From assembly GCF_011764445.1 (NCBI RefSeq), contig NZ_BLPG01000001.1:8361316-8425315 (forward strand): 64,000 bases of DNA, given 5' to 3'. Origin of the DNA: Phytohabitans rumicis (lineage in GTDB: Bacteria > Actinomycetota > Actinomycetes > Mycobacteriales > Micromonosporaceae). Below the pieces are notes generated by a model. That model ran no database searches and was not told where the DNA came from. It saw only the letters and a list, made by a program, of their open reading frames with translations. A program made the translations under genes and the position numbers. This document shows, piece by piece, positions 3,285 through 51,589 of the stretch. Position 1 is the stretch's first letter. Each line of letters opens with the position of its first letter.

Positions 3285-4247
3285 TCACTGGGCTTGGGCC
3301 AGGGTCACCGCGAACCTGCCCTCCGGGTCGGTCCACCAGTGCAGCGGCGCGAAGCCAGCGGCACTCAACTCGGCGAATACCCCTTCCCGCCGGAACTTGG
3401 CGGACACCTCGGTGTACAGCTCCTCGCCGGCCGCGAACGACACGTCCAGGTCCAGCTCTCCGATGTGGACGGTCATGTCCCGGTCGGCGCGCAGTCGCAT
3501 CTCGATCCACTCCCGCTCGGCGTCCCAGAGCGCCACGTGGGTGAACGCCTCCGGGTCGAAGTCGGCGCCCAGTTGCCGGTTGAGCACGTACAACACGTTG
3601 CGGTTGAACTCGGCCGTGACGCCCTCCGCGTCGTCGTACGCGGCGACCAGGGCGGCCGGGTCCTTGACCAGGTCGGTGCCCAGCAGAAACCACTCGCCCG
3701 GTGCCAGCACGGCGTGCAGCCCGGACAGGAACTCGGCGCGCTCGGCCGGCACCAGGTTGCCGATCGTCCCGCCCAGGAACGCCACGAGCCGCGCCTCGCC
3801 GGCCGGAATCTCGTCCAGGTGCCGGGTGAAGTCGCCGACGATCGCGTGCACATCCAGGTCGGGGTAGTCCGCGTCGATCGCGGTGGCGGCCGCCCGCAGC
3901 GCCGGCTCGGACACGTCCAGCGGCGCGAACGCCCCGAGCGTGCCGTACCGGCGCAGCGCGTCGAGCAGCAGCCGGGTCTTGTCGGACGAGCCGGACCCCA
4001 GCTCGACCAGCGTCTTCGCGCCGGTCGCCGCGGCGATGTCGGCCGCGTGGGCGGTGAGCGCGGCCCGCTCGGCCCGGGTCGGGTAGTACTCCGGCAGCTC
4101 GGTGATGCGCTCGAAGAGCTCACTGCCGCACTTGTCGTAGAACCACTTCGGCGGCAGCCACTTGGGCGAGGCGGTCAGGCCGGTGCGGGCGTCCGCGCGC
4201 AGCGCCCGGCTCTGGTCGGCCTCGGTCAGATGGATGTCGAGCCTCAC
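3285..4247 (-). CDS. egtD: L-histidine N-alpha-methyltransferase EgtD
   Basis: SAM-dependent enzyme that trimethylates the alpha-amino group of histidine to make hercynine, the committed substrate of ergothioneine synthesis. 320 residues, the normal family length. Seen: PKWLPPKWFYDKCGSELFER near the N terminus, a family hallmark; SAM-binding ELGSGSSDKTR (about 85-95); FLGGTIGN; and the C-terminal FAAGEELYTEVSAKF block. GTG start at 4247 overlaps the egtC stop by 4 bases (GTGA), so translation is probably coupled. Cytosolic. Intact, with no frame problem. Confidence 0.95.
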   Translation of the reverse strand: MRLDIHLTEADQSRALRADARTGLTASPKWLPPKWFYDKCGSELFERITELPEYYPTRAERAALTAHAADIAAATGAKTLVELGSGSSDKTRLLLDALRRYGTLGAFAPLDVSEPALRAAATAIDADYPDLDVHAIVGDFTRHLDEIPAGEARLVAFLGGTIGNLVPAERAEFLSGLHAVLAPGEWFLLGTDLVKDPAALVAAYDDAEGVTAEFNRNVLYVLNRQLGADFDPEAFTHVALWDAEREWIEMRLRADRDMTVHIGELDLDVSFAAGEELYTEVSAKFRREGVFAELSAAGFAPLHWWTDPEGRFAVTLAQAQ

Positions 4248-4978
4248 AGATCCTCCACTGTGTACGTCAAGGGGTCGGCCACGAGGAGCCGGCGATCGGG
4301 AACGGTCTGCCAGGCGGGGTCGTCGTCGGACGGCTCCGACGCGATGGTCACCGCGCCCGTTCTGGCCTGGATGGACAGTGAGTGCCCGGCCGTCGTGGCG
4401 TACGCCCGGCGGCCGCCGGTCAGGAGCAGGTTGAGCCGGGAGCCGGGCGCGGCGGCGGTCACCTCGGCCACGGTGGTGGCCAGGGCGGCCGCCGGGTCGG
4501 CGCCGCCGCGCAGCCGGTGCCGCACCAGCGCCCACAGCAGCGCCGCGTCGGTGGGCGCCTCCAGGGTGAGCAGATCGGTGACCGGCAGCCGCTCGGCGAG
4601 CTTGGCGACGCTGTGCGGCCAGCCCTTGACGACACCGTTGTGGCTGAAGAGCCAATCGCCTTCCCCGAACGGTGCGCAGGCGCCCTCGGCGACGGGCATG
4701 CCCACGGTGGCGGAGCGCACCGCGGCCAGGGTGGCTTTTGTTTTCACGACCCGGGCCAGCTCCGCGAAGCCCGGGTCGCTCCACATCGGACTCGCGCGCC
4801 GGTAGCGCACCGGGCCGTGGGGGGTGAACCACCCCACGCCGAAGCCGTCGGCGTTGATGGTGCCGCCGCCGCGCATGTCCCGGGGCGCCCAGGACTGGCG
4901 CAGCAGCCCGTGCGGCGGGTCGAGCAGCAGCGCCGCCAGGCTGACAGGTGGCCCGAGATAGGCCAGGTGCCGGCACAT
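4244..4978 (-). CDS. egtC: Gamma-glutamyl-hercynylcysteine sulfoxide hydrolase EgtC (class II glutamine amidotransferase fold)
   Basis: Removes the gamma-glutamyl group from the EgtB product. Begins MCRHLAYLGPP: Cys2 becomes the N-terminal nucleophile once the initiator Met is removed, as in class II amidotransferases. Other fold motifs: the GGGTINADGFGVGWF block, LFSHNGVVKGW and the SEPSDDDPAWQTVPDRRLL region. 244 residues, normal length. Its ATG shares one base with the egtB stop (TGATG), and its own stop overlaps egtD by 4 bases, so the five egt genes form one tightly packed transcript. Confidence 0.95.
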   Translation of the reverse strand: MCRHLAYLGPPVSLAALLLDPPHGLLRQSWAPRDMRGGGTINADGFGVGWFTPHGPVRYRRASPMWSDPGFAELARVVKTKATLAAVRSATVGMPVAEGACAPFGEGDWLFSHNGVVKGWPHSVAKLAERLPVTDLLTLEAPTDAALLWALVRHRLRGGADPAAALATTVAEVTAAAPGSRLNLLLTGGRRAYATTAGHSLSIQARTGAVTIASEPSDDDPAWQTVPDRRLLVADPLTYTVEDL

Positions 4979-6279
4979 CAAGCCGCCTCGCCGGGCAGCG
5001 GGTCGCGGGCGCACCGGAAGCCGCTGAAGATCTGTCGCCGGATCGGGTAGTCCCAGTTGCGGAACGTGCCCCGGCACGCCGACCGGTCGGTGCCGAACGA
5101 CCCGCCGCGCAGCACCTTGTAGTCCGGCCCGAAGAAGACCTCCGAGTACTCCCGGTACGGGAACGCGGCGAACCCGGCGTACCCCCGGAAGTCGGACGCC
5201 GTCCACTCCCAGACGTCGCCGATGAGCTGGTGCACCCCGTACGGCGACGCACCCTCGGGGTAGGCGCCGACCGGGGCCGGGGCGAGGTGCCGCTGGCCGA
5301 GGTTGGCGTGCCGCTCGGCCGGATCCTCGTCGCCCCACGGGTAGCGCCGGGACCGGCCGGTCGCCGGGTCGAAGCGGGCCGCCTTCTCCCACTCCGCCTC
5401 GGTCGGCAGCCGCTTGCCGGCCCACGCCGCGTACGCCTCCGCCTCGTACCAGCAGACGTGCACCACCGGCTCGTCCGGCACGATCGGCTCCCGCCGGCCG
5501 AACCGCGTGTACGTCCCGTCGCCGTGCCAGTGCATCGGTCCGGTCAGGCCGGCGCGCTTGCGATGCGCCCAGCCGTCCGGACTCCACCAGCGCGGGTTGT
5601 CGTAGCCGCCCGCGTCGACGAACTCCTGATAGAGCGCGTTCGTCACCGGCGCCCGGTCGATCAGGAACGCCCCGACCCGGGCGGTGTGCGCCGGGCGCTC
5701 GTTGTCCAGCGCCCAGGGCTCGGTCGACGTACCCATGCTGAAGGACCCGCCCGGGATCAGCGCCTCGCCGACGACGGGCGCGACCGGCCGCGGCGGCGGC
5801 GCGGCCGGCAGCACCGGCGGGCCCGCGCGCAGCTGGTGGGTGGCCAGCATGGTCTCGTCGTGCTGCTGCTCGTGCTGCACGATCATCCCGAACGCGAACC
5901 CCCGCTCCACCAGCGGCCGCCCCTCCAGCGTCACCGAGTCGAGCAGGTCCAGCACCTTGTCCCGCACCGTCCGGGTGTAGACCCGCGCCTCCGCCGGCCC
6001 CAGCAGCGGCAGCGCCGGCCGGTCCGCCCGCGGATGCTGGAACGCGTCGTAGAGGTGGTCGATGTCCGCCCGCACCGGCTCGCGCCCGCCCACGTCGCGC
6101 ACCAGCCACAACTCCTCCTGGTTGCCGACGTGGGCAAAGTCCCACACCAGCGGCGACATCAGCGGGGAGTGCTGGCGGGTCAGATCGTCGTCGTCCACCG
6201 CGTCGGTGAGCGCCAGGCTGCGGACCCGGGCGCGGTCCAGTTCCGCGGCGACCAGCGTGCGGACGTCGGTGTCGGTCAT
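4978..6279 (-). CDS. egtB: Ergothioneine sulfoxide synthase EgtB
   Basis: Mononuclear non-haem iron enzyme that joins hercynine and gamma-glutamylcysteine with oxygen to form the sulfoxide. 433 residues. DinB-like N-terminal domain with the three iron ligands visible: His50 in WDFAHVGN, and His136 and His140 in VQHEQQHDET (HX3HXE). The C-terminal FGE-sulfatase-like domain has the LIPGGSFSMGT start, RLPTEAEWEKAARFD, GDVWEWTASDF and the terminal VLRGGSFGTDRSACRGTFRNW block. ATG at 6279 overlaps the egtA stop by 4 bases. Its second substrate is the egtA product. Confidence 0.95.
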   Translation of the reverse strand: MTDTDVRTLVAAELDRARVRSLALTDAVDDDDLTRQHSPLMSPLVWDFAHVGNQEELWLVRDVGGREPVRADIDHLYDAFQHPRADRPALPLLGPAEARVYTRTVRDKVLDLLDSVTLEGRPLVERGFAFGMIVQHEQQHDETMLATHQLRAGPPVLPAAPPPRPVAPVVGEALIPGGSFSMGTSTEPWALDNERPAHTARVGAFLIDRAPVTNALYQEFVDAGGYDNPRWWSPDGWAHRKRAGLTGPMHWHGDGTYTRFGRREPIVPDEPVVHVCWYEAEAYAAWAGKRLPTEAEWEKAARFDPATGRSRRYPWGDEDPAERHANLGQRHLAPAPVGAYPEGASPYGVHQLIGDVWEWTASDFRGYAGFAAFPYREYSEVFFGPDYKVLRGGSFGTDRSACRGTFRNWDYPIRRQIFSGFRCARDPLPGEAA

Positions 6280-7720
6280 GACAAGCCTCCTTGGGTCAGG
6301 CGTTCTCTGATGGCCTCGGCGGTCTCGGTCGTCAGGTCGGTGTCGGCGAGGGCCTCGCACGCCAGCGCCCGCAGTCGCGGCGCCACCGCCGCGATCACGG
6401 GATCGGCCAGGCCGTCGCGGGCGGCCTCCACCCACCGGTCCGCGGCGGGCGCGGCGATCGCGGACGCCGCGTCCACCGTCTCTTCCCGCGCAAAAAGCGC
6501 CGCGAGTACGCCGACGGGGGTGAACCAGTCGCCGGTGGGCTGGGCGTCGAGGTAGCGGACTTCCAGGTAACCCCGGGCCCGTACCGGCGTGAAGAGCGTG
6601 CTGAGGTGGTAGTCCAGGTCGTCGTAGGTGGGCGGCCGGTCCGGGGCGCCGGGCACCCCCGCGACCCAGTCCGCGAACGTGACCCGCCCGGGCACGTCGC
6701 GAACCCCGTCCCCTTCGCGCACACAGAGCACCGGCGTATCCAGCACCCGCCGCGCCCACGCCCCCACGGCCTCCGCCCCCGCGCCCCCGCCCTCGCCGCC
6801 CTCGCTGCGTCCGCCGCGCTTCCCTCCGCGCTCGCTGTGCTCGCCGCGCTCCCCGCGCTCGCTGCGTCCCCCGCGCTCGCGGCGCCTGCGGCGCCCGCGG
6901 CGCCCGCCGCGCCTTCCCCGTCGATCAAGGGCGAATGGTCGTGGTTTGATCTCCGATCCGCGACCGTTTGCCCTTGATCGGCGTGGAAGTCCTTGATCGG
7001 CGGTGGCGGGTGGGTGCGGCTCGGGTCGGCCCCGAACCACGTCCGCACCCGGTGTGACGCCCACCCGGTGTCGCGGCCGGCGTGCCGGGGCGAGTTGGCG
7101 AACAGCGCGACGAGGACCGGCCCCACCGCGTGCAGCGCCGTCCAGCGCGCGCCCACCCGTTCCGGCGTGCCCGCGTCCAGGCACACCTGCAGGCCGGCGC
7201 TCCCGCACATCCACGCCCGGCCATGCGGGCCCAACCGATCGAAGGCACGTTCCATCGCCGTGTAACGCGGTGTGTGCAGGACGCGCCGGGCCGGTCGGTG
7301 CGGATCGCAACCGTGGTCGCCGAGGCGCAGGCCGGCGCTGGCGAGCCGCTCCGCGACGAACGCGATGTCGGCCGCCGTTCCGGCGTACAGGCTGCTCAGG
7401 GAGGCTGCCGGTGGGGTGGAGATCTCCACCTGACCACCGGGCTCGACGGTGACAGCGCCGCCGTACGGCAACGGGTCGTGTGGACTGTCCGGCCGCAGGG
7501 TAGGGGGCGCGTGGTCACCGAGCGCCGCGGCGAGCGCGGCGGGGTCGAGAGGGCGGGTGGGGTCGTCGGTGTGGTGCACAGTCCACTCGAGCTCGATGCC
7601 CACGTGGCGAGGTGGCCCGGTCTTGAAGCAGACCTTCCCGACATATCCCTCCGCGCCGGCCCGGTCCGTGACGACCGTGCCAGCTACTGGCTCGTCCGTT
7701 ACCGATTCGAGATATGACAC
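6276..7720 (-). CDS. egtA: Glutamate-cysteine ligase EgtA carrying a palindromic-repeat insertion; apparent 1-base frameshift near 6785
   Basis: Makes gamma-glutamylcysteine for EgtB. N-terminal half is clearly EgtA (FKTGPPRHVGIELEWTVH, GGQVEISTPP, CGSAGLQVCLDA, ALFANSPRHAGRDTGWASHR) and the C-terminal half resumes with AWARRVLDTPVLCVREGDG and TYDDLDYHLSTLFTPVRARG. Between them, about residues 240-311 come from repeat copy A plus a C-rich low-complexity tract; EgtA homologues as I know them have only about ten residues here. The repeat is read through without a stop in the N-terminal frame; the switch to the C-terminal frame falls in a run of five Gs near 6785, and one more G would restore a single frame of about 481 residues. 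GTG start at 7720 chosen because homology begins at once; TTG at 7750 is possible. First gene of the operon. Confidence 0.85.
6790..6919. repeat. C-rich low-complexity tract next to repeat copy A, inside egtA
   Basis: About 130 bases of imperfect C-rich triplets (gcgctcgc, ccgcgctc, ggcgcccgc units) lying on the 5' side of the palindrome as read on the plus strand. In the egtA frame it encodes an Ala/Ser/Gly/Arg-rich linker. Similar tracts adjoin the same side of most other copies of this family, so it may be part of the element or a product of it. Confidence 0.6.
6920..7001 (+). repeat. Palindromic repeat family 1, copy A (inside egtA)
   Basis: 82 bp. Structure: GTCGATCAAGGGCGAATGGT arm, a short loop containing TTTGATCTCC, the complementary arm GCGACCGTTTGCCCTTGATC, then a spacer and a third CCTTGATCGGC half-site. 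The inner arms are about 21 bp and nearly perfect inverted repeats. Lies within the coding sequence of egtA, in the loop between its two halves. No stop codon in the egtA frame. Confidence 0.9.
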
Positions 7721-7865
7721 GGAGCCGACGCTACCTCGCGGGTACGACAACCACCCGCCCTCACCCCCCTCTTCACCCCTTCTTCACCCCCTTGCGCCTC
7801 TGCGCCCTCTCCCCCTCTCTGCCCCTTCTCTGCCCCGCCCGCCCCGCCCGCCCCGCCCCCGCCTC

Positions 7866-7947
7866 GTCGATCAAGGGCATATGGTCGTGCTTTGATCTCC
7901 AAACCACGACCATTTGCCCTTGATCGACGCGGAATCCCTTGATCGGC
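7866..7947 (+). repeat. Palindromic repeat family 1, copy B
   Basis: 82 bp, the clearest copy: arm GATCAAGGGCATATGGTCGT is complementary to ACGACCATTTGCCCTTGATC with one mismatch, loop of about 15 bases containing TTTGATCTCC, followed by GACGCGGAAT and the third half-site CCCTTGATCGGC. A C-rich tract (repeated gccccgcccg) adjoins its left side. Confidence 0.92.
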
Positions 7948-8018
7948 GAGCCGGGCAGGGCCGGAGTGGGCGGGCGGAGCGGGGCAGTGCCCCAAAGGGG
8001 GCCCTATGGGGCGTCCCG

Positions 8019-8115
8019 ACGTGAGTAGGGCGCCCCTATACCCGCGCTGACCCGTACAGGGGTGCCCTGCTCACGTCCGATCACCCAGGAGGGGTCCCCT
8101 ACTCGCGGGTCACCC
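8019..8115. repeat. Short G/C-rich direct and inverted repeats
   Basis: On the minus strand two imperfect copies of a roughly 30 bp unit (GAGTAGGGGACCCCT and GAGCAGGGCACCCCT, each followed by a GGGT-A motif) lie end to end. A third copy of the same unit (GTGAGTAGGGCGCCCCTA) is on the plus strand at about 8021-8038. Looks like a separate intergenic repeat family; function unknown. Confidence 0.55.
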
Positions 8116-8201
8116 GCGGCCCGCGGCGCGGGGTACTCGCGGTCGGACGCGGTCACGTCGAGGCCCTCCGCACGGCCGCCGCCCGCCGCCTTCCGCGTCC
8201 C

Positions 8202-8283
8202 GCCGATCAAGGGATTCCTCGTCGATCAAGGGCAAACGGTCGTGGATTGGAGATCAAAGCACGGCCATATGCCCTTGATCGAC
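8202..8283 (-). repeat. Palindromic repeat family 1, copy C (inverted relative to copy B)
   Basis: 82 bp on the minus strand: GTCGATCAAGGGCATATGGC arm, loop with TTTGATCTCC, complementary arm, then GAGGAAT and CCCTTGATCGGC. Nearly identical to copy B read on the other strand. Its C-rich flank is the adjoining pentamer tract, on the same relative side as in copy B. Confidence 0.92.
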
Positions 8284-8421
8284 GAGGCGAGGCGGGGCGA
8301 GGCGAGGCGGGGCGGGGCGAGGCGAGGCGGGGCGGGGCGGGGCGGGGCGAGGCGGGGCGAGGCGAGGCGGGAGCGGAGCGGGGCGGGGGCGGGGCGGGGG
8401 CGGGGCGGGGGCGGGGGAGAA
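8284..8421 (+). repeat. Tandem GGCGA/GGCGG pentamer tract
   Basis: Around 17 consecutive pentamers of GGCGA or GGCGG, passing into ggcgggggcgggg runs near 8385-8421. The plus strand has many closely spaced G runs and could form G-quadruplexes. The tract sits between repeat copy C and the 3' end of the NRPS gene. Prone to copy-number change. Confidence 0.85.
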
Positions 8422-8446
8422 CACTGGGGCCGCGCTGGGTGGGTGG

Positions 8447-11400
8447 CTACGGGCGTGGCTGTGGGGGTGGGGGGTCGGTGCGGCGGGAGAGCTCGGCTAG
8501 ACCTACCAGGTCGTCGGGTTCGGCGTCGGGGACGTCGCGGTCGAAGTGGGCCAGGACCGGCCGCCGCAGCGACAGCACGACCAGCGCGCCCATCGCCAGC
8601 CCGCACAGGAGGTAGAGCAGGCCGGTGCCGCGGCCCGCGCCGACGCCAATCACCGCGCCGACCGTGCCGGCCAGCGGGCCGTCCGGGTTGACCAGTGGTT
8701 GCAGGGCGGCGCTGGCCAGCGGCGCCAGCGCGTACCCGAGGGAGAGCACCGACAGCGCGACCATCTGGTTCAGTGCGATCACGCGGGCGTGGAAGCGCTG
8801 CGGCACCTTCGTGTGGATGATCGTGATCCAGGCGCCGTTGACCAGCACCAGCGCGAACGACAGGCAGAACGTCCCGGCGGCGATCAGCGCCGCCGAGGGG
8901 CGCAGCCCGGAGACCGCGGCGCTGGCCGCCACACCGGCCGCCGCCCACAGCAGGCCGCGCATCCGGTGCCGCTTCGGCCCGCCCCACAGGGCCATGACGA
9001 GGCCGCCGGCCACCGCCCCGGCGGCGGACACCATCGCCACTCGCCCGGCGTCGGCCAGTGAGCCCACGGCCAGCACGAGCGGCGAAACCAGCACGAGTAC
9101 GGCGGCCAGCGGCGCGTTGAGACCGACGAAGAACAGGAGCATGGCGCGCAGTCCGGGGCGGCGGAAGAAGTAGTGGTAGCCGCCCCGGATCTCGGCGAGC
9201 ACCGTTTCCCGTCGCCGCCAGGCCAAGGTGCGCGGGAAGCGTACGGCCAGCAGCACGGTCACGCACACCATGTAGCTGGCCACGTCGAGGAGCAGGATGC
9301 CGAGCATGCCCAGCGAGTGCAGCAGCGCCACCGCCACCAGCGGTACGAGGAACTGCGCCGCCCCGGTCGCCAGCTGCACGACGCCGTTGGCGTGCCCGAG
9401 GTAGTGCTTCGGCACCAGCTGTGGCACCGCGGAGGTGTATGCGAGTCGCTGGAGCGTCAGCGCGACGGACAGCGTGGCCAGCAGTCCATAGAGGACACCC
9501 GACGCGAGTACCCCGGAGGCCAGCAGCAGGGCCAGGGCCGCCTGGATCAGTCCAGCCAGGACGCTCGCCCCGATGAGTACCCGCCGCCGGTCGCCGCGGT
9601 CCACGATGGCCCCCGCGAGGGGTGCCACGAGGATGCCCGGCAGCAGGCCGGCCACGGCGAAGAGGGCGAAGCGCAGCAGCGAGCCGGTCTCCAGGTAGGC
9701 CCAGATCGGCAGCGCGAACTCGGTCAGCGCCGTACCCGTCATGGACACCAGTTGCCCGGCCGCGACGGCGAGGAAGCGGGCCATGCTGGGGCGCGGGCCG
9801 GCCACCGCGGCCGTCGACGGGGAGGAGGGCACCGGCCCGGTCACGATCCGCGCCAGCTCAGACGCACGGTACTTGAGGAAGTAGTGCCCGGCCTCGTCCA
9901 GCACCACCAGGCCGGTACGCGGGGTCAGGAACCCCCACTCCCGGAAGCGCTCCTGGTAGTAGTCGGTGCCCGGGTCCTTCTCGCCGACGACGGACACGAT
10001 CGGCGCCCGCAACGGCGCCGCCCGGGAGGCCAGCAGCGCGGTGAAGTAGTCCTCGGCCTCCTCGGCGTCGCGCCGCATCGCCCGGATCAGGTGCCGCCGC
10101 TGGGCCGGGTCGAGCGCGCCCACGTCGGCGCCCATGGACTGCAGCCAGTTGGCGTACACGGTGTCGGACCGCAGCCGGGACAGCCGCGCCAGCAAGGAGA
10201 TCCGGGGGCGCGCGAACGGGAAGACGCCGCCCAGATACACCGCTTCGAGGGTACGGCCGGACGCCTCCAGCCGGCGGGCGACCTCCACGGTCAGCGCCGC
10301 ACCCGGACCGCAGTGTCCATAGAGGACCAGCGGGCCGGAGACCCGGCGCAGCACCTCGTCCGTCACGCGGGCTGCCACCTCGGCGAGCGGCAGCGGCTCC
10401 TCCTGCACGCCGACGTCGTGTCCCGGCACGGCGACGGAGTACAGCGACACCCCGTCGGGCAGGGCGTCGGCGAGCGGCTGGTAAACGATCGCGCTGGCCC
10501 CGCCGTACGGCACGCAGACCAGCGACAGCGTGCGGGTGGCCGCCGGGCGGGTCAGCTCGTGCAGCAGCGGGCGCGGGCCGGACCGGTCGCCGAGGCCGGC
10601 CAGCCCGCGCGGGGTCGGGTGCTTGAAGAGGTCCATCGCGCTGACCGGAAAGGGCAGCCGCCCGCGCAGCCGGCTCACCACCTGGATCGCGAGCAGCGAG
10701 TGCCCGCCGAGGGCGAAGAAGTCGTCCTCCGCGCCGACCCGCGAAACGCCCAGCAGCTCCCGCCATACGGAAGCGATGGCCTCCTCGACGGGCCCGTCGG
10801 GCGCCACAAAGGCGTCACCGCGCGCGGCGACAGCGGGAGCGGGCAGCGCGCCGCGGTCCAATTTGCCGTGCGCCATCCGCGGCAGCGCGTCCAGCCACAC
10901 CGCCGCGGCCGGCAGCATGTACTCCGGCAGCGTCCGCGCGAGCCGTTCCCGCAGCGCGGCGAGCGGGAGGTCCGGAGTGGACGCCCGCTCCAGGTACGCC
11001 ACCAGCCGCTCGCCGTGCACGACGACGGCCGCCTGGGTCACCTCGGGCAGCGCGGCGAGGGTGGCCTCGATCTCGCCCAGCTCGATCCGGTAGCCGCGCA
11101 GCTTCACCTGGTGGTCGCGCCGGCCCAGGAACTCCAGGTCACCGCTCGGCAGCCAGCGCGCCAGGTCGCCGGTGCGGTAGAGCCGCTGGCCGCTTCGCGT
11201 GTGCACGAACCGCTCGGCCGTCAGCGACGGCTTGCCCAGGTAGCCGCGGGCGAGCCGGTCACCGCCCAGGAAGAGCTCGCCGACCGCGCCCACCGGCACC
11301 GGCCGGAGTAGCCGGTCGAGCACGTGCGCCTCGGCGTACGGCAGGGGGCGGCCGATCGGCGTGGTGACCGAGCCGGGATCCACGTCGGGGCGCACCGGGT

Positions 11401-13707
11401 ACGTGGTGACGCCGACCGTGGCCTCGGTCGGTCCATAGTGGTTGACGACCTCGGCGGAACCGAGCGATGCGAGCTCCCGGGTCCAGTCCGCCCGGGACGC
11501 CTCGCCGCCGAGCACGAGCGCGCGCCGGGGGAGCAGGTCGCGGGCGGGCACCTCGGCGGCGAGCGTGGCCAGGTGGGACGGGGTGAGCTTCAGGTAGTCG
11601 ATCCGGTCCGCCGCGATGCGGGCGGCCACCTCCTGGGCGGTGGACCGCCGGTCGATCAGGTGGACGCAGCCGCCGGTCGCGAGCGCCGGGTAGAACATGG
11701 TGACCGCGAAGTCGAACGACAGCGACTGCATCAGGCCGAAGCGGGCACCGTCCACGATGGCCAGCCGGTGGCGTATCCCGTCGAGGTAGCGCACCAGCTG
11801 CTGGTGCTGGACGGCGACGCCCTTGGGCTGCCCGGTGGAGCCGGAGGTGTAGATGACGTACGCGAGGTTGTCGGGCGTCGCTACCCCAGCCAAAGGCGCC
11901 CCGGCCAACGGCGCCCCAGCGGGACCCACCACGTCGGTGACCACCCGGCCGGTATAGCCGGCGAAGAGCCCGGCCAGTTCCGGCGTGGTGAGCAGCACGC
12001 CGGCGCCCGCGTCGTCGAGCAGGTACGCCAGCCGGGCCGGCGGCTGCTCCGGGTCCAGCGGCAGGTACGCGCCGCCCGCCTTGAGCACGCCGAGCACCGC
12101 CACCGCCGAGCCGGTGGACTGCGGCAGGCAGATGCCCACCCGCGCGTCCGGCTCGACGCCGAGCGCGCGCAGCCGCGCCGCGAGCCCGTTCGCCAGGCTG
12201 TCCAGCTCCGCGTACGTCAGCGCGGCCGCGCCGTGCACCACGGCCGGCGCGTCGGGCGTGCGGGCCACCCAGCCGTCGAACGCGTCGGTCAGCAGCGCCG
12301 GTGCCGAGTCCACCGGCTCCCCGAGGCTGAACCGCCGCAGCACCACGTGTTCGTCGGGCGACAGCAGGTCCAGTGTGGACAGTGGTAGGGACGGATCAGC
12401 GCACGCCTGGCGCAGCAACGTCGCGTAGCGCCCGAACAGCCGCGCCACGGTGCCGGCGTCGAACAGGTCGGTGTTGTAGGTGACCGTGCCGACCAGCTCG
12501 TCCCCGTCGTGGTGCAGGTACAGGGCCAGCTCGTGCCGGGTGGTCGCCGGCGCCACGTCGAACGGGCCGAACGCGAGCGAGCCGCGCCGGGTCGAGGGCG
12601 GCTTGGCGTAGTTCTGCATCGCGAAGCTGACCTGGAAGACCGGCGGCCGGCGCACGTCCCGGGTCACCTTCAGCTCGCTGACCAGCCGCTCAAACGGCAG
12701 CTCCTGGTGGGCGAACGCGTCGATGGCGGCCTCGCGTACCCGGCCGAGCAGCCCGTCGAACGTCGGGTCGCCGGCCAGGTCGGCCCGGAAGACGACCGTG
12801 TTGACGAACAGCCCGACCAGGCCCTCGGTCTCCGGCTGTCCCCGCCCGGACACCGGTACGCCGACGCCGAAGTCGTCCTGGCCGGCGTACCAGCCCAGCA
12901 GCGCCTGGAACCCGGCCAGCAGCACCATGAACGGCGTCGCGCCGCGGGCCCGGCCGACCGCCGCGAGGGCCGCGGTCAGCCCCGCGTCGAGCCGGAACGT
13001 GTGCACCGCGCCGTTGGCGGTCTGCTCGGGCGGGTAGGGGCGGTCGGTCGGCAGCTCCAACGCGGGCACCCCGGCCAGCCGTTCCCGCCAGAACGACAGG
13101 TCGCGCCCGGTCGAGGTCAGCGCCCGCTGCCAGCGTGCCCAGTCGCCGTACCCGATCGGCAGTTCCGGCAGCCCGGCCGGGCGGCCGGTGCGCGCGGCGT
13201 CGTAGAGCGCGCCCAGTTCGTCCAGGATCAGCTCGGTGGACCAGCCGTCGCTGACGATGTGGTGCATGGTCAGGCACAGCACCCGGTCGTCCGGCCCGAT
13301 CGTGACCAGCGCCGCCCGGAAGAGCGGCCCGGCGGCCAGGTCGAACGGGACGGCCACCTCCCGGGCCAGCGCGTCGGGGAGTCCAACCGGGTGAGCGGCA
13401 CGGGTCCCGGCGTGGCCACCTCCACGGTGGGCTTGCCGTCCACAGTGGCCGGAAAGCGCATCCGCAGGCTCTCGTGCCGCGCCACGAGCGCGGCCAGCGC
13501 CGCCTCCAGCGCGTCCTCGTCGAGCGGTCCGGCGATCCGCAGCGGCAGCCACATGTGGTAGGTCGCGGTGCCCGGCGCGTACTGCTCCAGGAACCACATC
13601 CGCTCCTGGGCGTACGACAGCGGCGGCGGGCTGCCGTCGGCGCACCGGGCGATGGCCGGCGACGCCGCACCCGCGGCGCGCCACCGCTGGGCGAGCGCCG
13701 ACGTCAC
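8447..13707 (-). CDS. NRPS termination module C-A-PCP-TE fused to an MFS exporter; apparent 1-base frameshift near 13382
   Basis: About 1,753 residues. Order: condensation domain (start RMWFLEQYAPGT; active site MHHIVSDGWS), adenylation domain (about 470-960; YTSGSTGQPKGV, NHYGPTEATVG, YRTGDLARW), carrier (about 1000; DDFFALGGHSLLAIQ), thioesterase (about 1055-1290) and an MFS permease (about 1305-1742). The pocket residues I read from the A domain are D-F-T-K-V-G-H-V-G, close to the aspartate code DLTKVGHIG, so Asp is the predicted substrate. The thioesterase has GHCGPG where GHSxG is usual, giving a Cys nucleophile; its partners appear as VVGEKDPG and EAGHYF. GTG start at 13707 overlaps the upstream stop (GTGA). 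The N-terminal frame breaks after TRLD; one C at 13380-13383 restores it. Confidence 0.88.
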
Positions 13708-32203: not shown

Positions 32204-32307
32204 GCGGCAAACCGTACCGCCGCCCGTCCAGCAGATGCGCAACCGCCTGTGTGGCTCCGCTGCTCGGCGTAACGTCACAGGAGTTGTACGGCTAAGGGGG
32301 GTTCGCG

Positions 32308-33027
32308 ATGTTTGTGCAGGTGATCCAGGGGCAGGTTCCGGACGCGGAGGAGATGCGCGGCGCGCTCGACCGGTGGACCGAGGAGCTGTCGCCCGGCGCT
32401 TCCGGCTGGCTCGGTACGACGGCGGGCGTGACCGACGACGGGATGTTCGTCGCGCTGGTGCGGTTCGACTCGGAGGAGGCGGCCCGGCGGAACAGCGGCC
32501 GGCCGGAGCAGGACCGGTGGTGGGCGGAGACGGCGAAGCTGTTCGCCGGCGAGGCGACGTTCCGGGACAGCAGCGACGTCCAGGTGGACACCGTCGGCGA
32601 TCCGGACCGGGCCGGCTTCGTGCAGGTCATGCAGGGCCGGGGCACGGATCCCGAGCGGGCCCGGGAGCTGATAGCGCAGGACTCCCGCGAGTGGGCCTCG
32701 TTCCGGCCGGACGTCGTGGGCAGCGTCGCGATCCAGCACGAGGGCGGCGCGTACACGATGGCGATCTACTTCACCTCGGAGGAGGAGGCGCGCGAGGGCG
32801 AGCGCAAGGAGCCGCCGCCGGCGATGCAGAAGCAGATGGAGGAGCTGAACTCGCTGAACGTGGGTGTGCCGCAGTTCCTCGACATCCGCCAGCCCTGGCT
32901 GTACTCCCCCACTAAGGCCCCGTTCGCGCCGCGCCGCGCCGCGCGTTCGCGTCGATCAAGGGCAAACGGTCGTGCTTTGATCTCTAATCCACGACCGTAT
33001 GCCCTTGATCGACGCGAGAGTCCTTGA
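32308..33027 (+). CDS. Duplicated ABM-like (dimeric alpha-beta barrel) protein with repeat-encoded C-terminal tail
   Basis: Two similar halves, each a ferredoxin-like barrel unit: MFVQVIQGQVPDAEEMRGAL with GMFVALVRFDSEEAARRN, and GFVQVMQGRGTDPERARELI with TMAIYFTSEEEAREGE. Such units resemble antibiotic-biosynthesis-monooxygenase-like proteins, but no catalytic assignment can be made. The native fold seems to end near QFLDIRQPWLYS (about residue 200). The remaining residues, including RRSRANGRALISNPRPYALD, are translated from a GC-rich tract and repeat copy D, and the stop codon lies within the repeat. ATG at 32308 after a GGGGGG ribosome-like run. Confidence 0.7.
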   Translation: MFVQVIQGQVPDAEEMRGALDRWTEELSPGASGWLGTTAGVTDDGMFVALVRFDSEEAARRNSGRPEQDRWWAETAKLFAGEATFRDSSDVQVDTVGDPDRAGFVQVMQGRGTDPERARELIAQDSREWASFRPDVVGSVAIQHEGGAYTMAIYFTSEEEAREGERKEPPPAMQKQMEELNSLNVGVPQFLDIRQPWLYSPTKAPFAPRRAARSRRSRANGRALISNPRPYALDRRESP

Positions 33028-33191: not shown

Positions 33192-33273
33192 GTCGATCAA
33201 GGACTTTCGCGTCGATCAAGGGCATATGGTCGTGGAAAAGAGATCAAAGCACGGCCGTATGCCCTTGATCGAC
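33192..33273 (-). repeat. Palindromic repeat family 1, copy E (inverted relative to copy D)
   Basis: 82 bp, minus orientation: GTCGATCAAGGGCATACGGC arm with its complement, TTTGATCTC loop and the third half-site CCTTGATCGAC. Lies 159 bp from copy D, facing it, in the space between two convergent genes. Nothing gene-like lies between the two copies. Confidence 0.92.
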
Positions 33274-46235: not shown

Positions 46236-46336
46236 GTCGATCAAGGATTTTGCCGTCGATCAAGGGCATATGGTCGCGCTTTGATCTCCGATCCACGACC
46301 ATTTGCCCTTGATCGACGGGGTTTTCCTTGATCGGC
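46236..46336 (+). repeat. Palindromic repeat family 1, copy F (long form)
   Basis: 101 bp and the most complete form: outer arm GTCGATCAAGGATTTTGCC, inner arm GTCGATCAAGGGCATATGGT, loop TTTGATCTCC, inner complement ACGACCATTTGCCCTTGATC and outer complement TTTTCCTTGATCGGC. Both outer half-sites are present, so the element is a nested double palindrome. Lies just after the ABC operon, before a convergent gene. C-rich left flank. Confidence 0.92.
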
Positions 46337-50150: not shown

Positions 50151-51566
50151 GTGACCCGCCGTCTCCACCCCGCCTGGCTCGTCGCCGTCGTGGCCTTTGT
50201 CGCGCTCGTCGGGGCGGCCGGCTTCCGCGCCACCCCGTCGGTGCTGCTGCATCCGCTGCACGCGGAGTTCCGGTGGCCGCTGGCCACCATCTCCGCCGCG
50301 GTGTCGGTCAACCTCATCCTGTACGGCCTCACGGCGCCCTTCGCGGCGGCGCTGATGGAACGGTTCGGCATGCGGCGGGTGGTGTCCGGCGCGCTGCTGC
50401 TGGTCGCCGCGGGCAGCGGGCTGACCGTCTTCATGAACGCGAGCTGGCAGCTCATCCTGTGCTGGGGCGTGCTGGTCGGGCTGGGCACCGGCTCGATGGC
50501 GCTGGCGTTCGTGGCGACCGTGACCGGGCGCTGGTTCGTGCGCCGGCGCGGGCTGGTGACCGGCGTGCTCACCGCCGGCGGGGCGGCCGGGCAACTGGTC
50601 TTCCTGCCGCTGCTGGCGACCGTCGTGCAGGCCAGCGGGTGGCGCACGGCCGCGCTCATCGTGGCCGGGTCGGCGCTGGCCGTCGTACCCCTGGTGGTGT
50701 GGCGCCTGCGCGATCACCCGGCGGACCTGGGGGTGACCGCGTACGGCGCGGTCGCCGAGAGCGCGGCGCCGGCGCCCCCGTCCGGAGCCGCGCGGCGGGC
50801 CGTGGGCGCCCTGCGGACGGCCGCCCGGACTCGGGCGTTCTGGCTGCTGGCCGGCGGCTTCGCGATCTGCGGTGCGACCACGAACGGCCTGGTTGGCACG
50901 CACTTCATCCCGGCCGCCCACGACCACGGCATGGCGGAGACCACCGCCGCCGGCCTGCTCGCGCTGGTGGGGCTCTTCGACATCGCCGGCACGATCGCGT
51001 CCGGCTGGCTCACCGACCGGGTGGACAGCCGGCTGCTGCTCGGCGCGTACTACGCGCTGCGCGGCGGCTCGCTGCTGGTGCTGCCGAGCCTGTTCGCCGA
51101 CAGCGCGGGGCCGAGCATGCTGGTGTTCATCGTCTTCTACGGGCTTGACTGGGTGGCCACCGTGCCGCCGACGGTCGCCCTGTGCCGGGAGTACTTCGGC
51201 GAGAGTGGGCCGATCGTGTTCGGCTGGGTGTTCGCGGCGCACCAGTTCGGCGCGGCGGTGGCGGCGACCGGCGCCGGCCTGGTGCGCGACCAGCTCGGCA
51301 CCTACGCCCTGGCCTGGTACGTCGCCGGCGCCCTGTCGGTCGGCGCCGCCGTCCTGTCCCTCCTGCTACGCCGCGGCGGCGCCCCCGCCCCATCCCGATC
51401 CCCGTGCCCGCCCCCGCGGTCGCCTGGCGCCTCCGCTAGCCCCCGCGCCCGCCGGCCCTCACCCCGCGCCCCCACCCGCGCTCCCCGCGCGCGATCAAGG
51501 GCATTGCCGCCGATCAAGGGCAAACGGTCGTGCTTCGATCTCCAATCCACGACCTTTTGCCCTTGA
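50151..51566 (+). CDS. MFS transporter (oxalate/formate-antiporter-like) with repeat-encoded C-terminal tail
   Basis: About 12 membrane helices; MERFGMRRVVSGALLLVAAG and ASGWLTDRVDSRLLLG are motif-A-like loops. The last helix ends near LSLLLRRGG (about residue 410). The remaining roughly 55 residues are Pro/Arg/Ser-rich, read from a C-rich tract, and end in IKGKRSCFDLQSTTFCP from repeat copy G, which supplies the stop. The native stop may have been lost or displaced; a TAG in another frame at about 51436 fits a lost base in that tract. GTG at 50151 chosen, where homology begins. Confidence 0.8.
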   Translation: MTRRLHPAWLVAVVAFVALVGAAGFRATPSVLLHPLHAEFRWPLATISAAVSVNLILYGLTAPFAAALMERFGMRRVVSGALLLVAAGSGLTVFMNASWQLILCWGVLVGLGTGSMALAFVATVTGRWFVRRRGLVTGVLTAGGAAGQLVFLPLLATVVQASGWRTAALIVAGSALAVVPLVVWRLRDHPADLGVTAYGAVAESAAPAPPSGAARRAVGALRTAARTRAFWLLAGGFAICGATTNGLVGTHFIPAAHDHGMAETTAAGLLALVGLFDIAGTIASGWLTDRVDSRLLLGAYYALRGGSLLVLPSLFADSAGPSMLVFIVFYGLDWVATVPPTVALCREYFGESGPIVFGWVFAAHQFGAAVAATGAGLVRDQLGTYALAWYVAGALSVGAAVLSLLLRRGGAPAPSRSPCPPPRSPGASASPRARRPSPRAPTRAPRARSRALPPIKGKRSCFDLQSTTFCP

Positions 51567-51589
51567 TCGGCGCCGTTTTCCTTGATCGC
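51491..51589 (+). repeat. Palindromic repeat family 1, copy G (long form)
   Basis: 99 bp: outer arm GCGATCAAGGGCATTGCC, inner arm GCCGATCAAGGGCAAACGGT, loop TTCGATCTCC, inner complement ACGACCTTTTGCCCTTGATC and outer TTTTCCTTGATCGC. Provides the last 17 residues and stop of the MFS gene. A long C-rich tract is on its left. Confidence 0.92.

Follow-up and report, generated by a model that had tools for sequence, protein, structure and literature searches.

A palindromic repeat inserted in the EgtA linker of Phytohabitans rumicis

In Phytohabitans rumicis, egtA is interrupted by a copy of a 57-nt palindromic repeat and an adjoining G/C-rich tract. Our analysis supports the view that this lineage-limited repeat was inserted in a loop whose length varies among relatives. 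We put at about even the chance that the cell makes an EgtA with some 73 extra residues from the repeat, the break in the reading frame being a base-call error. What we observed is the insertion, the empty site in four congeners and a family of 574 copies to which the insert belongs; from this we infer the following course of events. A lineage-limited burst of a REP-like palindromic repeat would have put one copy, with the tract, antisense into the EgtA linker. The one-base break would come from a base undercalled in an assembly made from long reads only, the G-rich tract being the likeliest place, and the extra residues, probably unstructured, would link two halves of the GCS2 fold that are each intact. 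The copy would have survived because the site allows a longer loop and the element has two stop-free frames in the direction of insertion.

An insertion in the EgtA linker

We analyzed a 64,000-nt window of the P. rumicis genome. Here egtA lies on the minus strand, from 7750 to 6276, and its two halves (both Pfam GCS2) are split by the palindrome, its outer arm and the tract. As assembled, the gene forms two open reading frames in different frames, one of 451 aa (7750..6395) and one of 344 aa (7310..6276). The N-terminal half (7004..7750, minus strand) scores 118.1 bits against GCS2, covers positions 1-222 of TIGR03444, the NCBIfam model for EgtA, and aligns with the four congeners; its start was taken as the TTG at 7750, inferred from an ATG at the same place in the congeners. 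The C-terminal half (6276..6758, minus strand), in the other frame as assembled, belongs to the 344-aa frame, which scores 38.7 bits against GCS2. Between the halves lie the outer arm of the repeat (6980..7003, minus strand, ends approximate, from copy alignments), the 57-nt core (6923..6979), whose element orientation is plus and therefore antisense to egtA, and the tract (6775..6920, minus strand, ends approximate), which is C-rich on the plus strand. The first-pass annotation had described the EgtA halves as separated by a palindrome and a C-rich tract, and these data bear it out.

Like the gamma-glutamylcysteine ligase of ergothioneine synthesis described by TIGR03444, the P. rumicis EgtA is conserved in both halves and is adjoined by egtB and egtD. 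It differs in the length between its linker anchors and in its broken frame, and as one protein the 451-aa frame reaches 230.8 bits, below the TIGR03444 cutoff of 370.8. Both neighbors are open throughout: egtB (4978..6279, minus strand), whose start overlaps the end of egtA, is 87-89% identical to its congeneric counterparts, and egtD (3285..4253, minus strand, start provisional) is 81-82% identical to those of the four congeners. A search of positions 6000-9000 against Rfam gave three matches, all to microRNA models and far below their cutoffs. Nearby, a single 1745-aa frame (8447-13684, minus strand) appears by eye to run from nonribosomal peptide synthetase domains through a thioesterase-like part to a transporter-like part.

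Alignment with egtA from G002, P. flavus, P. suffuscus and P. maris, the last three being the best EgtA relatives (among the best 80 of 284), gave P. rumicis a net gain of 218 nt, as 203 plus 15 extra columns between PSRTHPPP and WARRVLDTPVL. Between fixed anchors the distance is 267 nt in P. rumicis, against 49 nt in all four congeners, so that the segment, tract included, is missing from every one of the four congeners having egtA. The insertion is therefore certain as far as the assembly goes, and the earlier estimate of about 70 residues fits, since 219 nt make 73 codons. Alignment with related strains had been proposed as a check, and its outcome agrees with an insertion. The least probable of the explanations we weighed is that the segment was copied in error from another repeat locus during assembly. 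The genome does hold 574 similar copies, but the best-scoring match found elsewhere (40 of 931 first-look candidates scored) reaches just 77% identity across 248 of 501 nt, and the flanks of the insert join cleanly to the empty site. In comparison with MITEs, inverted arms are present and no target duplication is definable at the CCGCC junction.

We then compared the linker across 81 relatives (80 fetched loci and G002). It measures 16 aa in 73 of them, 17 in four, 18 in one, 20 in two and 23 in one. In the 79 relatives compared for insertions, only 6 of 371 interior EgtA junctions carry any; three of these six fall at residues 247-250, the site of the repeat insert, as do three of the five insertions of at least three residues. 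This clustering suggests that the repeat landed in a loop that tolerates changes in length. A target preference for C-rich DNA could produce the same coincidence, since the EgtA loop is proline-rich. By alignment, the insert would sit on the EgtA fold at a short variable stretch of solved glutamate-cysteine ligase structures; three sequences with solved structures matched, all carrying that name (two chloroplastic), with a best E-value of 8e-25.

A palindrome family in two Phytohabitans species

A strict 57-nt pattern allowing up to 3 mismatches found 574 copies (287 + 287) in the P. rumicis genome (G000; 10,714,690 bases, 3 contigs) and 393 (211 + 182) in the congener G004. The other four genus genomes had none, and the reversed control pattern had none in all six. 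There are 47 copies in the 464 kb around the window, and none in the 400 kb around the egt loci of G005 and of G002. The window itself holds seven. Besides the egtA copy, copy searches and alignments placed one upstream of egtA (7869..7925, plus strand) with an inverted partner (8224..8280, minus), and others at 32954..33010 (plus), 33214..33270 (minus), 46258..46314 (plus) and 51512..51568 (plus); a frame screen showed the frame of the upstream gene running into the copy at 32954 as assembled. A 21-nt half-site pattern matched the window 14 times, with 0 expected from 100 shuffles.

The copies often form inverted pairs and are preceded by C-rich sequence, with on average 50 C and 26 G per 100 nt. 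For 36 of 45 P. rumicis copies, the nearest coding window 5' of the element is in sense, and the arrangement is convergent for 21 of the 45; the sense bias is absent from G004 (15 of 28). In the 464-kb stretch, the egtA copy was the only one seen to interrupt a gene that G005 and G002 have in one piece, by a reading of the table in which many copies lack a homologue on one or both sides. Further afield, a diverged form of the same length occurs at 21 places in a genome of another genus of the family (G032), and among 200 family genomes drawn, at least 16 have a match to an 89-nt copy, some of them short (4 candidates scored per genome).

The predicted hairpin of the 7869 copy pairs CGTC with GACG in an imperfect stem of more than 20 pairs. 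Copies in G004 have the arm motif GCACGTG with CGCGTGC where those of P. rumicis have GGTCGTG with CACGACC, a difference that looks compensatory from the sequences. We did not use arm covariation as proof of a conserved hairpin, as the arms look independent within P. rumicis (pair 11/47: AT 29, AC 8, GT 8, GC 2).

Two other features of the window were seen by eye or in the frames. Between the inverted copies at 7869 and 8224, positions 7985-8110 hold a different repeat with motifs resembling GGGGTCCCC and CCCCTATAC, similar by eye to one between copies in locus L005. The plus-strand gene at 32296-33027 has a frame that enters a repeat copy, so that its last residues would be repeat-encoded and end in PRPYALDRRESP; downstream of a run of C a stop just misses this frame, which may reflect another base-call error.

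Reading frame across the insert and the state of egtA

At 218 nt, the insert is one base short of 219, and the two halves of egtA are out of frame as assembled. The claim of the first-pass annotation that the frame is kept was thus not confirmed. Its related claim that no stop interrupts the egtA frame was confirmed: the N-half and C-half frames are each open across the whole insert, but this openness is intrinsic to the element. Among the six frames of the extended element, the two antisense frames used by egtA are open in 46/46 and 45/46 copies (46 of the 47 copies, the one with no clear orientation being left out). We therefore rejected the idea that the open frame has been selected, and the absence of stops proves nothing about translation.

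The accuracy of the assembly bears directly on the missing base. The available part of a genome report on four type strains gives P. rumicis NBRC 108638 as 10.71 Mb in three scaffolds, from PacBio RSII reads assembled with Canu 1.4, and makes no mention of short reads (PMC7692728), so the source assembly appears to be PacBio-only. We counted strict frame changes in conserved coding DNA over three 400-464-kb stretches, with open frames picked by base composition; a few sites appear in the counts of two genomes, as the error could sit in either. The P. rumicis stretch has 19 in 88.6 kb (egtA included), G005 17 in 96.3 kb and G002 12 in 106.4 kb, or about one per 5-9 kb in the three assemblies. 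Local alignments of the 18 P. rumicis cases other than egtA, with gaps read by eye, gave 14 net losses of one base, 1 net gain of one and 3 unclear. Since most are single missing bases, frame-based findings from this genome need care. The one-base shortfall in egtA is the commonest type of frame error seen in the assembly, and one third of random insertions would give the same result. The tract contains four G5 runs and one G4, and its density of G/C runs of at least 5 is 22.6 per kb vs 1.34 in the region. Given the apparently PacBio-only assembly, the frequency of frame changes and the prevalence of one-base losses, the frame break is a weak sign that the gene has died. A one-base gap also occurs in the C half of egtA in P. 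flavus, whose PacBio-only assembly comes from the same project.

Nearly as likely as the best reading, though itself short of even, is that egtA is a recent pseudogene, killed by an insertion whose length is not a multiple of three, with halves still intact because the event is young. The net gain of 218 nt and the broken frame are what such an event would leave. The repeat-sharing congener G004, a draft of 480 contigs at 98% completeness, fits as well: its best EgtA match is 32% identical, vs 81-84% in the four congeners; no EgtD match was found; and its EgtB matches are partial, the best at 59% over 98 of 432 residues, with P. rumicis itself having a paralogue at 54%. The ergothioneine pathway can thus be absent in the genus, G004 being the only congener that shares the repeat, although a gap in the draft may account for these results. 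P. rumicis also has other GCS2-like places (34-35% identity), and in Mycobacterium tuberculosis deletion of egtA is described as abolishing gamma-glutamylcysteine while very low ergothioneine remained (PMC6154287, in part). Against gene death, neither half contains a stop codon, egtB and egtD are open, the insert sits in an insertion-tolerant linker, and the shortfall is of the kind most often seen in this assembly.

Selection on the two halves was compared by pairwise dN/dS. For the N half, P. rumicis against the four congeners gave 0.17-0.20 (0.20-0.30 among the congeners themselves). The corresponding values were 0.18-0.25 (0.19-0.41) for the C half, 0.16-0.20 (0.16-0.25) for egtB, and 0.30-0.34 (0.21-0.34) for egtD. 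No relaxation of egtA is visible by this measure, which on a long branch, and with an insertion that may be young, is blind to recent death.

A third explanation is that two separate proteins come from the halves, or that frameshifting on the G-rich tract joins them. In its favor, each frame stays open far into the other. Against it, a single open frame carries the N half and the linker and continues beyond it in 81 relatives, a ribosome site is only hypothetical, and an additional mechanism would be needed that nothing else in the data demands. We consider it highly unlikely.

Returning to translation of the insert within EgtA, we examined coding signals in the repeat. Under a codon model, 60-nt windows of the insert score at most 0.15 in every frame, against a median of 0.44 for conserved genes in 150-nt windows. 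Codon usage that is not coding-like, together with frames that are open intrinsically, leaves nothing in the insert that argues for long coding selection. Across the family, copy-to-copy entropy over 134 copies is 8.82 bits in one codon phase vs 2.96 and 3.22 in the others (pair-position shuffling, P = 0.024). Taken separately, 46 P. rumicis copies give P = 0.031 and 39 G004 copies P = 0.035, a modest effect in species that are not independent. In the 57-nt core, one frame per strand is stop-free in 85/85 copies of the two species, and the two frames encode nearly the same peptide (SRANGR..PRPFALD); on the sense strand the outer arm supplies a stop after the core. In the always-open frame, 50-59% of pairwise codon differences are synonymous vs 3-18% in other frames (46 P. 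rumicis and 39 G004 copies).

We screened 134 P. rumicis copies for intragenic positions, using the 464-kb stretch and 67 loci chosen for holding a copy (L002-L008, L203-L262). Eighteen copies gave 20 stop-free frames that cross the element and have a coding-like flank; by eye, most belong to genes with their end inside the element or their start beyond it. We drew no argument for translation from gene ends that enter the element in one frame, since several of them look frame-shifted close to the end. Two of the 134 copies lie inside genes, in egtA and at L002:1360-2520, with limited sensitivity; a stricter screen missed the egtA copy.

The second gene (contig C1 of the P. rumicis genome, 6538011-6539171, minus strand) is an uninterrupted ATG-to-TGA frame of 386 aa, and its copy is the best-scoring other genome match of the egtA insert. 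The element is antisense, in the same frame as in the EgtA N half, inside a long low-complexity linker. The stop of the gene overlaps the start of a Pvc16_N gene (PF14065, 149 bits), whose locus is of the contractile injection type. No Pfam or NCBIfam model matches the 386-aa protein. Among 20 other fetched Pvc16 loci, none of which holds the element, 13 have an upstream gene that ends at the Pvc16 start with the same C-terminal motif, and the other 7 gave no such motif. Of the 13 genes, 11 allow a start to be proposed (206-298 aa, most with a similar N-terminus) and two do not. Judging by shared end motifs and position, these 13 genes in other genera are probable homologues of the 386-aa gene that lack the element. 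The genus genomes hold no close Pvc16 homologue (G002 a weak one), so there is no congeneric empty site to compare. This locus shows that the genome holds a copy in frame within a gene, which says nothing direct about translation of the egtA copy; it does lend independent support to the translation reading.

The proposal of the first-pass annotation that EgtA tolerates an extra translated loop therefore fares unevenly. An insertion in a length-variable loop, a one-base loss typical of the assembly and a second, in-frame copy speak for it; the broken frame and the intrinsic openness of the element do not. The interpretation of an EgtA with extra residues also has to reckon with codon usage in the insert that is not coding-like, the rarity of intragenic copies (2/134), the apparent lack of the pathway in G004 and the blindness of dN/dS to recent death. 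As judged from these sequences, translation of the egtA insert is plausible.

Should the insert be translated, egtA would be a loop insertion made by nature in a biosynthetic enzyme, for which relatives supply the exact empty site; its agent would be a repeat with several hundred copies that occurs in two of the six Phytohabitans species sampled. The range of translated palindromes would then take in high-GC actinomycetes and thiol metabolism. If instead egtA is dead, the repeat has broken a pathway that its repeat-sharing congener G004 also seems to lack.

Comparison with known palindromic elements

Searches of the open-access literature by title, with the terms used, returned no paper describing the 57-nt repeat in Micromonosporaceae, and nothing on repeats among the listed matches for ergothioneine genes. 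Neither Actinobacteria nor Micromonospora occurs as a word in one survey (PMC3733652, Di Nocera et al. 2013), which does refer to REP-like sequences without a tag in M. tuberculosis. Its consulted portion describes in-frame intragenic REPs in several species beyond Rickettsia, with dimers or grouped repeats encoding 20-30 residues and clusters 43-82. Most REPs there lie downstream of genes and between convergent or unidirectional ones, and CGTC-type REPs have no dedicated transposase.

The P. rumicis repeat resembles those CGTC-tagged REPs, as far as that portion describes them, in its CGTC ends, its position mostly after gene 3' ends, its inverted pairs and the occurrence of intragenic copies. 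As to a dedicated transposase, no member of the Y1_Tnp family was found in the six genus genomes; a control search recovered the family in 5 of 14 known genomes. Unlike them, it has its CGTC paired with GACG where their tag is unpaired, and an imperfect stem of more than 20 pairs where theirs has 8-9 bp and a loop of 4-5 nt. With GTAG REPs and REPINs it shares high copy number, palindromes, inverted pairs and a mostly extragenic distribution; those elements come with a RAYT, whereas the six genus genomes have no Y1 transposase, and we rejected mobilisation by RAYT for that reason.

Rickettsia palindromic elements (RPEs) are the classic case of palindromes in protein genes, and an excerpt of a review places nearly half of the 44 R. 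conorii RPEs in open reading frames (PMC10969869). Going by their description, the egtA copy is like an RPE: a palindrome within a coding gene, placed where an enzyme that is otherwise conserved has a loop, and with stop-free element frames. The element is stop-free in its inserted frame in 45 and 46 of 46 copies. It is unlike RPEs in that only 2 of 134 screened copies are intragenic, one of them frame-broken as assembled; for in-frame insertion in unrelated genes there is one clean case (L002:1360-2520) besides the frame-broken egtA. A bolder reading, to which we confine the codon-phase signal described above, would make the family an actinobacterial equivalent of RPEs: palindromes whose sequence stays translatable, standing in frame in at least one protein linker and, if the break is an error, in EgtA. 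We hold this reading doubtful. The kind of event is known, and the repeat family and the target enzyme appear to be new.
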